Shown here piece after piece: positions 208-45,605 of a stretch of 64,000 bases of DNA (its first letter is position 1; every line of letters begins with the position of its first letter). This stretch comes from Nitrospinota bacterium (GTDB lineage Bacteria; Nitrospinota; Nitrospinia; Nitrospinales; VA-1). Below the pieces are notes generated by a model. The model was not told where the DNA came from. It made no database searches and saw nothing but the letters and a program-made list of their open reading frames with translations. The DNA lies in NCBI GenBank assembly GCA_027619975.1, contig JAQCGX010000015.1:1-64000 (forward strand). The letters are read 5' to 3'. The position numbers were made by a program, and so were the translations under genes.

Positions 208-527
208 TTACAACCACCCTCACCTAACCTCTCCCATGAGGGAGAGGAATTTTATTAAACCTTCTCTATCTGTGTTCATCGATGGTTTCATCCATCCCCT
301 CACCCAGCCCTTGTGATATTTCACCTTTGCCTTCATGCCCGGTACGGGTACTCACCTTGAAGGGGCGAGGAAATTTTGTACTAAATCCCCCTAACCCCCT
401 TTTGTAAAGGGGGAATAATTGCCCCCCCTTCCGTGAAGGGGGCCGGGGGGATTTTTTTATCCTGTTTGTCCCGTTAAAATAGTTTTGTTTTGGTTTTCTC
501 TGCGTCCTCTGCGTCTTTGCGGTAAAT
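208..527. repeat. Cluster of several short intergenic repeat families
   Basis: This gene-free stretch is a patchwork of short repeats. There is a CCTCACC-type repeat with the palindrome CTCTCCCATGAGGGAGAG at 229-246. A segment near 265-290 reads like a TCTGTGTTCATC repeat. A second CCTCACCC-like piece begins near 297. Two CCCCCT/AGGGGG palindromes lie at about 384-450, beginning AATCCCCCTAACCCCC; the same motif follows the DUF559 gene near 59925. A CTCTGCGTCCTCTGCGTC repeat abuts the stop codon of the next gene at 500-525. Such repeats are familiar from intergenic regions of unrelated bacteria; that is recollection, not a search result. The palindromes could act as transcription terminators. 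Confidence 0.7.
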
Positions 528-39987: not shown

Positions 39988-41313
39988 ATGAAAGTCGCTT
40001 TTGCCACTCTCGGATGCCGCACCAATCAGCACGATACGGCTGAGATGCAAACCCTCATGGAACAGGAAGGGTTTGCCATCGTCAATTCCAGAGAAGTGGC
40101 GGATGTTTACGTGATCAACACCTGCTCGGTGACGCAACGAAGCGACTACAGCTCACGTCTGGCGGTGAAAAATTCTCTCACCATCAACGACAAGGCCCTG
40201 GTGGTTTTCACCGGCTGTTACGCGCAACTGGCTCCTGATGAAGCCGCCGAAATTGAAGGCCTCGACATCGTTCTCGGCAACGCCGACAAACTAGATATCG
40301 CCAGGGTCATCAAGAAAAAACTCGCGGGAGAATCGCGGTGGATTAAAGAAGATAAAACGGAAATCTTCATGTCGGACATTCACAAAAAAAGGGTGTTCCG
40401 CACCATCCCGGTTTCCGGGTTTCAGGGAAAAACCAAAGCCTTCATCAAGGTGCAAACCGGGTGCGACGAAAAATGCGCCTTTTGCACTGTCGTCCGGGCG
40501 CGGGGCAAGTCGATCAGCGACGAGAGGCAGAACATCTTCGATAACGTCACGGAAGCGATCGACTCCGGGTACAAGGAAATCACCCTCACCGGCATCAACC
40601 TGGGCACTTACGGCATGGACAAAGAAACTCCGGAAACCTTTTCCTCTTTGGTTCGAGACATAGTTCGCCTACCAGGAGACTTCCGCATCCGCCTGAGTTC
40701 TATCAACCCCATGGAAATCGACGACGATCTGCTACAACTGATCGCCGATGAAGAGAAAATCTGTCCGCATCTGCATATCCCCCTGCAAAGTGGAGACGAT
40801 GCCATTCTCGCCAAAATGCGGCGCAACTACAACTCCGGGCAATATCTCGACACCGTGCATCGGGCGCTGGATAAAATCCCGCGGCTGGGCCTGGGAGCGG
40901 ACGTCATCATCGGCTTTCCCGGCGAAACCGATCAAGGTTTTGAGAACACCCGCAAGCTTATCGAAAGCCTGCCCTTCACCTACCTGCATGCGTTCGCCTA
41001 TTCGCCGCGCAAAGGCACCGAAGCCTATGGCTTCAAGAACAATCTCCCAAAAACCGTCAAAAAAGAGCGTATTAAAATTCTAACCGCTCTGGCGCATGAA
41101 AAATCCCTCCAGTTTCAACGACAGTTCATTGGCAAGACCGTCACCGTTCTGCTGGAGAACCATAGAGACTCCGTCACGGGAAATCTTCGCGGCTACAGCG
41201 AGCACTATATCCCCGTCACCGTCCCAGGGGATGACCGCTTTAAAAACCAACTGGTGTCAGTAACAATCGAAGACGTCAGCGAACAAGGGGTTTCCGGATG
41301 CCTGCCATCATAA
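39988..41313 (+). CDS. mtaB: tRNA t6A37 methylthiotransferase MtaB-like
   Basis: 441 residues from the ATG at 39988 (MKVAFATLGCRTNQHD); a start at 39931 would add 19 without homology. The N-terminal cluster domain has Cys in TLGCRTN, INTCSVT and TGCYAQ. The radical SAM motif is GCDEKCAFC, followed by GINLGTYG, and a TRAM-like end occurs at about 370-440. The enzyme adds a methylthio group to t6A at position 37 of tRNAs decoding ANN codons, with two [4Fe-4S] clusters. The assignment to MtaB rather than MiaB or RimO rests on the LGCRTNQ start. It overlaps the next gene by 16 bases. Confidence 0.9.
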   Translation: MKVAFATLGCRTNQHDTAEMQTLMEQEGFAIVNSREVADVYVINTCSVTQRSDYSSRLAVKNSLTINDKALVVFTGCYAQLAPDEAAEIEGLDIVLGNADKLDIARVIKKKLAGESRWIKEDKTEIFMSDIHKKRVFRTIPVSGFQGKTKAFIKVQTGCDEKCAFCTVVRARGKSISDERQNIFDNVTEAIDSGYKEITLTGINLGTYGMDKETPETFSSLVRDIVRLPGDFRIRLSSINPMEIDDDLLQLIADEEKICPHLHIPLQSGDDAILAKMRRNYNSGQYLDTVHRALDKIPRLGLGADVIIGFPGETDQGFENTRKLIESLPFTYLHAFAYSPRKGTEAYGFKNNLPKTVKKERIKILTALAHEKSLQFQRQFIGKTVTVLLENHRDSVTGNLRGYSEHYIPVTVPGDDRFKNQLVSVTIEDVSEQGVSGCLPS

Positions 41314-42083
41314 CTCTGACAACCGATTTCGGCCTGGAGGACCCCTTTGTCGGGATCATGAAAGGGGTGATCCTGACCATCGCTCCAACCACACGGATCG
41401 TTGATATCACCCACGGGATCGAGCCGCAAAATATCACGCAGGCCGCTCTGGCGCTGGAGGCCGCCCATTCCTATTTCCCGAAAAATAGCGTGCATCTGGT
41501 CGTCGTGGACCCTGGGGTTGGCAGTGAACGCAGGACCATCGCCGTGAAGAATAAATCCGCCACCTTCGTGGGACCGGACAATGGGGTGCTGACACCTGCG
41601 ATCAACCCGGCTTCCCGCATTTATGAACTGTCCAGCAAAAAATATTTTTTACCGGAAATTTCCTTCACTTTCCACGGGCGTGACGTGTTTGCTCCCGCCG
41701 CAGCCTGGATCGCCAAGGGAACGCCGCTATCGAAAATGGGAAGAAAAATCAACGATCCCCAGCTTCTGGAACTGCCGCAACCGGAAGTGAAGAAAAATGC
41801 AATCACCGGCGAGATCATCCACATCGATCACTTCGGAAATTGCATCTCCAACATATCGTCGGAGCTTTTGAACGCCACCTTCCAGCTCAATGTCGCCTTG
41901 ACTCTTAAAATCGGTAAAACCCGCATCCATGATTTTTCTTCGCATTACTCGCAATGCAAAAAGGGAGACATCGGTTGCCTGATCAACAGTTGCGGGAAAG
42001 TCGAAATCTTTTGCCGGGACGGCAACGCCGCAAGCAAGCTGAAATTCCGTCTGGGAACCCGACTCACGATAAAAAAAGATTAG
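41298..42083 (+). CDS. SAM hydrolase (SAM hydroxide adenosyltransferase, DUF62)
   Basis: 261 residues, the size of the family. The N-terminus ITLTTDFGLEDPFVGIMKGV and the segments DITHGIEPQNI, VDPGVGS, GPDNGVLTPA and FHGRDVFAPAAAWIA are typical of SAM-dependent chlorinase/fluorinase relatives. The common non-halogenating form splits S-adenosylmethionine to adenosine and methionine with water. A fluorinase-type insert is not evident, so hydrolysis is the likely activity. It is translated from within the 3' end of mtaB. Confidence 0.88.
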   Translation: MPAIITLTTDFGLEDPFVGIMKGVILTIAPTTRIVDITHGIEPQNITQAALALEAAHSYFPKNSVHLVVVDPGVGSERRTIAVKNKSATFVGPDNGVLTPAINPASRIYELSSKKYFLPEISFTFHGRDVFAPAAAWIAKGTPLSKMGRKINDPQLLELPQPEVKKNAITGEIIHIDHFGNCISNISSELLNATFQLNVALTLKIGKTRIHDFSSHYSQCKKGDIGCLINSCGKVEIFCRDGNAASKLKFRLGTRLTIKKD

Positions 42084-42112
42084 ACAGGATTAACAGGATC
42101 GACAGGATTTTT
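42078..42112. repeat. ACAGGAT-unit repeat, left inverted arm of the GxxExxY cassette
   Basis: Three 8-9-base units, each containing ACAGGAT, form a 26-base arm that matches the arm at 42534-42564 in inverted orientation with one mismatch. It begins at the stop codon of the SAM hydrolase gene. Confidence 0.8.
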
Positions 42113-42141
42113 AATTCTTACAACCAAATTAAATTTAGACA

Positions 42142-42524
42142 ATGGAATATAGGGAACTGACTGAAAAAATAATTGGCTGTGCTTATAAGGTTTACAATAC
42201 TTTGGGATTTGGTTTTCTGGAAAGCGTTTACGAGAATTGTATGGCCATCGAATTGGAAAAATCTGGTTTAAGGTTTGCAACTCAAAAACCTATAAAAGTG
42301 CTTTATGAAAATAAAGTTGTAGGAAATTTTATATCGGATATCGTGGTTGATGACATTATTATTGTAGAACTAAAATCTGTAAAAAATGTTTCACAGCTCA
42401 TGAAGTTCAATTGGTTAATTATTTGGTGGCAACGGGAAAGCCTGTTGGGTTATTAATAAACTTCGGAGAGGATAAAGTCGAAGTAAAAAGAAAATTAAAG
42501 GATATAAAAATTAGTAAGAAATAA
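42142..42524 (+). pseudogene. GxxExxY protein (PD-(D/E)XK nuclease-like), frameshifted
   Basis: The first frame gives MEYRELTEKIIGCAYKVYNT, then GFGFLESVYENC (the GxxExxY motif: G-F-L-E-S-V-Y), SDIVVDDIIIVELKSV and VKNVSQ. It then runs out of frame. Shifting by one base at about 42395 continues AHEVQLVNYLVATGKPVGLL and INFGEDKVEVKRKLK to the TAA at 42522-42524. Family members carry the Asp and the E-L-K of a PD-(D/E)XK site, present here in DIVVDD and VELKSV. One base seems lost between TCACA and GCTCAT. The gene lies between inverted ACAGGAT-unit repeats. Its function is not established; here it looks recently broken, or there is one base of sequencing error. Confidence 0.82.
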
Positions 42525-42533
42525 GGGTTTGAT

Positions 42534-42564
42534 CCATCCTGTCAATCCTGTTAATCCTGTCAAA
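42534..42564. repeat. ACAGGAT-unit repeat, right inverted arm of the GxxExxY cassette
   Basis: CATCCTGTCAATCCTGTTAA and ATCCTGTC form the reverse complement of the arm at 42078-42112, with 25 of 26 bases matching. The arm ends 19 bases before the smpB start codon. An open frame through this repeat joins smpB in phase, but that part is repeat DNA, not protein. Confidence 0.82.
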
Positions 42565-42582: not shown

Positions 42583-43044
42583 ATGGACGGTATCAAAATC
42601 ATCTGCCAAAACAAAAAGGCGCGGCACAATTACTTCGTCGAAGACTCGATGGAAGCCGGTATCGTGCTACGCGGCCCCGAGGTGAAATCCCTGCGCGAGG
42701 GCAAGGCCAATCTGGTGGACAGCTACGCCTCGGTCGAGGGGGGTGAAGTCTGGCTCAATAATTTTCATATCAACCCCTACGCCCCGGCCCTCAGCCAGTT
42801 CAGCCTCCATCCCATGCGGAAACGAAAACTGCTTCTCAACAAGCGGGAAATCGAAAAACTGATCGGCAAGACCAAGGAAAAGGGATACAACCTCATCCCT
42901 CTCAAAGTTTATTTCAAGGGCGGTAAAGTCAAGATAGAGCTGTCTCTTGCCAAAGCCAAAAAACTGCACGACAAACGCGAGTCGATCAAAAAACGCGACG
43001 CCGACCGGGAAATCGATAAAGCCATGAAATCCCGCAGCCAATAA
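42583..43044 (+). CDS. smpB: SsrA-binding protein
   Basis: 153 residues from the ATG at 42583 (MDGIKIICQNKKARHNYFVE). The conserved GIVLRGPEVKSLREGKANL, YAPALSQFSLHPMRKRKLLL, LSLAKAKKLHDKRES and the basic C-terminal tail are standard. SmpB binds tmRNA and enters stalled ribosomes with it to release them and tag the product. The tmRNA gene itself was not found in this window. The upstream leader is now formed by the nuclease-cassette repeat, so the native promoter may have been displaced. Confidence 0.97.
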   Translation: MDGIKIICQNKKARHNYFVEDSMEAGIVLRGPEVKSLREGKANLVDSYASVEGGEVWLNNFHINPYAPALSQFSLHPMRKRKLLLNKREIEKLIGKTKEKGYNLIPLKVYFKGGKVKIELSLAKAKKLHDKRESIKKRDADREIDKAMKSRSQ

Positions 43045-45573: not shown

Positions 45574-45605
45574 CTCTTCCGCCGTCCAGGGCTAAGTAAA
45601 GAACA

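Follow-up and report, generated by a model that had tools for sequence, protein, structure and literature searches.

GxxExxY nuclease-like genes framed by inverted heptamer arrays: a putative nuclease-repeat partnership in bacteria and archaea

RAYTs are described as single-copy genes, each with its own REPs, with which they co-evolve (PMC3116915). Rpn nucleases, which stand alone, have been linked to RecA-independent DNA movement, and RpnA is reported to be nonspecific (PMC5350276). The locus described here has a nuclease-like gene of another family, GxxExxY, enclosed by two inverted arms built of a repeated heptamer.

The window analyzed is a stretch of 64,000 nucleotides from a Nitrospinota bacterium (contig JAQCGX010000015.1, assembly GCA_027619975.1; genome G000, 2.93 Mb). 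The cassette and its neighbors are arranged as follows:

41298-42083, plus strand: SAM hydroxide adenosyltransferase (SAM hydrolase), flanking host gene outside the cassette
42083-42108, plus strand: left arm, three ACAGGAT units, GACAGGATTAACAGGATCGACAGGAT, from the repeat analysis
42142-42456, plus strand: 5' part of the GxxExxY gene, predicted PD-(D/E)XK nuclease, frame lost near 42400; from the ORF and TIGR04256/PF13366
42417-42524, plus strand: 3' part of the GxxExxY gene in another frame, C-terminal 35 aa and stop
42536-42561, minus strand: right arm, three ACAGGAT units inverted, GACAGGATTAACAGGATTGACAGGAT, 25/26 identical to the left arm
42583-43044, plus strand: smpB, flanking host gene outside the cassette

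The first-pass annotation had described a GxxExxY gene between two 26-nt ACAGGAT arms, 25/26 matching in inverted orientation and fitting tightly between the SAM hydrolase stop codon and the smpB start, and this architecture is borne out: the first base of the left arm (42083) is the last base of the stop codon, and 21 nt separate the end of the right arm from the smpB ATG (42583). Counted with their margins, the arms amount to an inverted repeat of 29 nt that is 93% complementary, with a spacing of 427 nt. All four exact copies of ACAGGATNNACAGGAT in the window lie inside the two arms, and shuffled windows contain a mean of 0.45 matches to it when 2 mismatches are permitted. The only gene between the arms is GxxExxY, with PDDEXK_3 as the sole match and no known transposase. 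Its family was correctly named before (TIGR04256, 100.5 bits against a cut-off of 35; PF13366, 101.5 bits against a cut-off of 22), but a frameshift had been overlooked. The window copy lacks an intact reading frame: the family match is split, running up to about residue 85 of the family model in one frame and resuming in another with the C-terminus, NYLVATGKPVGLLINFGEDKVEVKRKLKDIKISKK and its stop codon (42417-42524). Because the frame is broken near 42400, this is probably a decaying copy, or a sequencing error is present. The intact form of the lineage is seen in G008, a member of another genus (L022/L049), and the window cassette most likely represents a decayed example of a general class of elements with a single gene.

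The generality of the arms was examined by scanning a single genome from each species, with an alignment of ten members as query. The scan gave 80 loci, and the addition of extra copies from the same genomes brought the set to 173 distinct GxxExxY genes, 170 of them with both flanks. Arms were sought by locally aligning the left flank with the inverted right flank, at a threshold score of 12 and at a stricter score of 18. Matching inverted arms were found at 81% of the 170 loci, in many phyla, as against 9% of flank pairs taken across loci; at the stricter score the figures are 51% and 1%. The first 89 loci gave 81%, compared with 7% for flanks paired across loci and with 5.5% of 255 other ORFs at the same loci. 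Chance or low-complexity matching is excluded by the cross-locus pairing, the control ORFs and shuffles. About 19% of loci have no clear inverted arms. The proposal that gene and inverted arms form one unit holds as a general rule for GxxExxY genes across bacteria and archaea; the outcome that had been set against it, genes without the repeat as frequent as genes with it, is absent from this sample. In the order to which the window belongs, the GxxExxY genes whose flanks are readable are, with few exceptions, framed likewise, with varied words.

The arms are arrays of about 7-nt units, two to four per arm with a period of about 9-10 nt, and have a median length of 32 nt; their median distance from the gene is 30 nt on the start side and 13.5 nt on the side of the stop codon. 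Unit words vary by locus (ACAGGAT, CGCAAAG, CACAGAG, CGCCAAG and others), with the same word on both arms of a locus, pointing inwards in 99/122. The named isolate Bacteroides finegoldii carries a GxxExxY gene (protein WP_032839887.1) with CACAGAG arms next to radA, and a Bernardetia record is likewise armed; two further named-isolate records have, respectively, an 11-nt arm only and a left array only. The arms are therefore not an artefact of metagenome assembly, though they are not universal. A genome in the sample may hold up to 13 GxxExxY matches.

G000 itself has one other GxxExxY gene (L014), whose inverted arms are made of another word, the left arm being ACCGCAAAGACGCAAAGGTCGCAAAG and the right arm CTTTGCGTTCTTTGCGTCTTTGCGGT. 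The rule is thus one of heptamer arms and not of ACAGGAT, which had been taken as the GxxExxY repeat and turns out to be only one among many unit types. A small ORF of unknown family (L014:1956-2354) lies between this second cassette and the neighbor gene and is missing in G001. At the same site, G003 and G004 have no cassette, and no clean junction that could mark an excision scar was readable there because their intergenic regions are rearranged by other repeats. Elsewhere in G000 there are about seven further ACAGGAT array sites (three units, <=3 mismatches), and none for the control pattern; these arrays are mostly intergenic and have no GxxExxY gene. One site in the window combines the unit types of both G000 cassettes:

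457-522, minus strand: gene-less composite arrays, with two ACAGGAT-like units (459-474) and three CGCAAAG/CGCAGAG units (498-521)

Composites of this kind recur in L001, L004 and L005.

The word of the arms varies with the protein. In 122 loci with clear arms, a Mantel comparison of protein identity with arm similarity over cross-phylum pairs gave r=0.31 (null sd 0.028, p<=0.001), and mean arm similarity is 0.18 at 25-30% protein identity and 0.43 above 60%. A deep split in the protein tree (support 98/95) separates GAT-ending from AG-ending units: one clade contains 20/20 CAGGAT-type and 19/22 other GAT-type loci, the other 46/47 AG-type loci. On this tree, unit type needs 14 changes and host phylum 57, and arms from copies in the same genome resemble each other no more closely than arms from different phyla do. 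The word is thus a property of the nuclease lineage and not of the host, and a repeat type set by the host can be discarded on the same two grounds. Host phyla were taken from record titles, so that misbinned contigs are possible. Two pairs of loci (L058/L072, L090/L097) have cassette genes that are about 82% identical in nucleotides in records of different phyla, reflecting either recent transfer or misbinning.

Arms and nuclease most likely evolve together, judging from these comparisons. The residues that separate GAT from AG readers lie in the loop 109-114, at about 15-25 and at 93-97, a distribution confounded by phylogeny. The earlier suggestion that the nuclease recognizes the repeat is favored, because the unit changes together with the nuclease, whatever the host; recognition by GxxExxY of its own arms is well supported by this inference, although the co-variation could alternatively reflect joint inheritance of arms and gene with no protein-DNA contact. 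A different reading puts the repeat first: the arrays would be older dispersed repeats of unrelated function, and the GxxExxY genes passengers or genes inserting nearby. Most arrays in G000 do lack a GxxExxY gene, and ACAGGAT arrays without a gene are present in each of the five species of the window's genus, whether or not the species has that nuclease type. Passengers, however, would carry the word of their host, yet copies in one genome differ; moreover, both arms share a word, mostly in inward orientation, and this word tracks the protein tree across phyla, which makes the repeat-first reading distinctly improbable.

The protein is under strong purifying selection (dN/dS 0.05-0.15 in six pairs). 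Invariant in 88 proteins are G22, G24, E27, D66, E76, K78, N107 and F108, with Q90 and Y94 nearly so; E27, D66, E76 and K78 are the catalytic residues of a PD-(D/E)XK enzyme and are accompanied by the nuclease fold. No solved structure with sequence similarity to GxxExxY was found. In Foldseek, the AlphaFold2 model (pLDDT 93.6) matches best SSO0001, a Cas4 protein (4ic1), followed by LHK-Exo and lambda exonuclease; the PADLOC matches to Cas4 are weak and of superfamily strength only. The invariant and nearly invariant columns include no cysteine, and there is thus no sign of an Fe-S cluster. GxxExxY is predicted to fold like a minimal Cas4/RecB-like PD-(D/E)XK nuclease.

An element that acts at the RNA level would use the arms differently, pairing them in the transcript as a long stem, with the protein acting on RNA or shielding the host mRNA, much as in the intervening sequences of 23S rRNA, which encode a four-helix-bundle protein. 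The cassettes are codirectional with the upstream gene in a ratio of 67:18 (89 loci), which suggests read-through transcription and hence frequent cotranscription. TIGR02436 four-helix-bundle genes from the genomes sampled here (L255-L284) are also framed by inverted iterated arms, in 19/28 at score >=12. Their words differ (AGTCAGG, TATCAGT, AGTATCA), matches reach 24 per genome, and these genes with their arms are possibly a second gene-repeat partnership. Against action on RNA, GxxExxY agrees in fold and in catalytic residues with DNA nucleases of the Cas4/lambda-exonuclease group, and a stem needs complementarity only, not one iterated heptamer or a word conserved within a clade. We regard the RNA-level reading as improbable.

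Arms also occur with no gene between them. Gene-less inverted pairs of cognate repeats are strongest in G083, where many ACAGGAT arrays form convergent pairs 80-200 bp apart (L301-L320), often with inner divergent CACGGAT arrays and sometimes chained; nested arrays are present in L004. When three gene-less elements were folded as single-stranded DNA and compared with shuffles, two gave strong hairpins (z -5.3 and -7.7) and the third a z of -1.6. CGCCAAG arrays reach their highest counts in G067 and G083, both of which have CGCCAAG-type nucleases; they are sparse in G060, which also has a nuclease of this type, and moderately numerous in some other genomes. In L316 (G083), a cluster of CGCCAAG arrays surrounds a GxxExxY gene.

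The reading that we consider somewhat probable is a nuclease-repeat partnership, in which GxxExxY binds its own heptamer arms, nicks or trims the DNA, and arm-bounded segments are copied or moved at a low rate. The nuclease would bind the heptamer array as a specific site, each subfamily reading its own word, and would nick or trim DNA at paired inverted arms, probably in a hairpin or single strand. Arm-bounded segments would then be copied or moved, if rarely; the targets would be the nuclease's own cassette and gene-less paired arms with the same word. Specific binding, cleavage at the arms and movement are what we infer beyond the observed architecture, generality, co-variation, selection, predicted fold, gene-less pairs and patchiness. 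Such a partnership would work like RAYT/REPIN with an unrelated enzyme.

The same sites in relatives bear on how the cassette may be gained and lost. At the SAM hydrolase-smpB site, G008 has an intact cassette with two-unit arms. A comparison with close relatives had been suggested in search of an empty site: four congeners indeed have no gene there, yet about 90 nt with degenerate ACAGG pieces in register persist on both sides, the best-kept in G004 (GACAGGCTGGACA on the left, GTTAATCCTGTCAAAA on the right). In a tree of the two host genes, G000 falls within the genus, adjacent to G003; the gene was thus either lost at this site in several lineages or regained by G000. The sites in the congeners and in G008 are compatible with loss and later re-invasion, or with homing into arms that had no gene. 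The window contains a second site of interest in this respect:

45574-45605, no strand: empty site, a 32-bp intergenic region between methyltransferase and EamA genes, where the congener G004 carries another GxxExxY cassette (about 0.57 kb)

In G004, a duplicated tail of smpB directly adjoins that cassette between the methyltransferase and EamA genes (L321:649-706, reverse complement). An interspersed repeat of about 100 bp (L050:36-132) is present in tens of copies in G004, with further copies in G000-G003, and has no visible relation to the heptamer arms.

A homing endonuclease would cut the gene-less arrays of an allele that has no cassette, after which repair templated by the cassette would copy the gene between the arms. 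This is consistent with the gene-less degenerate pieces of the four congeners among which the cassette-bearing G000 is nested, with the intact cassette of G008 at the same site in another genus, and with the different words of same-genome copies. Homing usually targets a non-inverted site that is destroyed by the insertion, whereas intact arms persist here on both sides of the cassette. In addition, cassette identity between G000 and G008 (74.6%) lies between the values of the two host genes (68.7 and 81.5%), so that old vertical descent with repeated loss fits equally well; homing appears unlikely as the explanation.

For the nuclease-repeat partnership, several observations are in accord with mobility. 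In the best-aligned cassette pairs at unrelated sites, nucleotide similarity ends at the outer arm ends; presence and absence vary within the window's genus, and a genome may hold several distinct copies. The best same-genome pair is 80% identical in nucleotides, with no near-identical copies; no target-site duplication was recognized by eye at the cassettes, and several cassettes occupy one site in different genera. Movement must therefore be rare. Transposition, excision and cleavage were not observed in the sequence comparisons. The cassette may be mobile, given its lateral spread, patchy presence and arm-end boundaries: of the small mobile homing-type cassette first proposed, the unit with inverted ends stands, while homing type, cleavage and movement are putative. 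Relatives of the L014 protein occur in 8 of 72,556 plasmid records, all typed non-mobilizable, and in no phage records. A defense or toxin-antitoxin gene with regulatory flanking repeats would account for a nuclease gene with patchy distribution and weak PADLOC Cas4 matches; such a role is very improbable, as no partner gene lies between the arms, plasmids and phages nearly lack the gene, and those matches are of superfamily strength only. A broader proposal can be offered tentatively, as a possibility: a minimal class of mobile elements across bacteria and archaea, with a Cas4-like nuclease as sole gene, which would recognize the heptamer word of its subfamily in the arrays at either end and would also drive dispersed gene-less arm pairs.

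Several known systems share parts of this organization. The STRRs, short tandemly repeated repetitive heptamers of cyanobacteria, form intergenic arrays and are alike by that description alone; we know of no link between them and a nuclease gene or inverted arms. No published account of GxxExxY/PF13366 with repeat arms, or of a link between heptamers or STRRs and a nuclease, was found in the literature; as far as found, the partnership is so far unrecognized, and the proteins are widespread and uncharacterized. Tying GxxExxY to a subfamily-specific DNA word would give it a directly testable function, and the dispersed heptamer arrays of many genomes would gain a probable owner. The family would also offer a natural series of nucleases of about 124 residues whose specificity appears to shift with a readable heptamer code. 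The mobile class, if true, would account for many of the heptamer arrays that are so far anonymous repeats in environmental genomes.

Insertion sequences with MITE derivatives likewise have one gene between inverted ends and gene-less derivatives with the same ends, but in the cassette there is no known transposase or recombinase, and no target duplication was seen, nor any fresh identical copies. Rpn/Transposase_31 (PF04754) proteins are also stand-alone PD-(D/E)XK nucleases; they belong to a different family, and no dedicated repeat arms are known to us for them. With Cas4, RecB-AddB and lambda exonuclease, GxxExxY shares the fold and the E...D...ExK...QxxxY pattern; in contrast to them, it has about 124 aa and no conserved cysteine, and its context in the window includes no CRISPR cas1/cas2, helicase or Red, the neighbors being SAM hydrolase and smpB. 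Of all these systems, RAYT/REPIN comes closest. In both, a low-copy chromosomal nuclease gene is flanked by a dispersed extragenic repeat that elsewhere forms gene-less inverted pairs, the repeat is particular to the nuclease subfamily, several distinct repeats are possible per genome, and the distribution points to lateral transfer. GxxExxY is nevertheless not a RAYT, because the enzyme is unrelated: RAYTs, relatives of IS200/IS605, are tyrosine transposases, and a HUH/Y1 tyrosine transposase is absent from the window cassette. The DNA partners differ as well, REPs being palindromic, whereas the arms of the Cas4/RecB-like PD-(D/E)XK genes are non-palindromic heptamer arrays that frame the gene on both sides.
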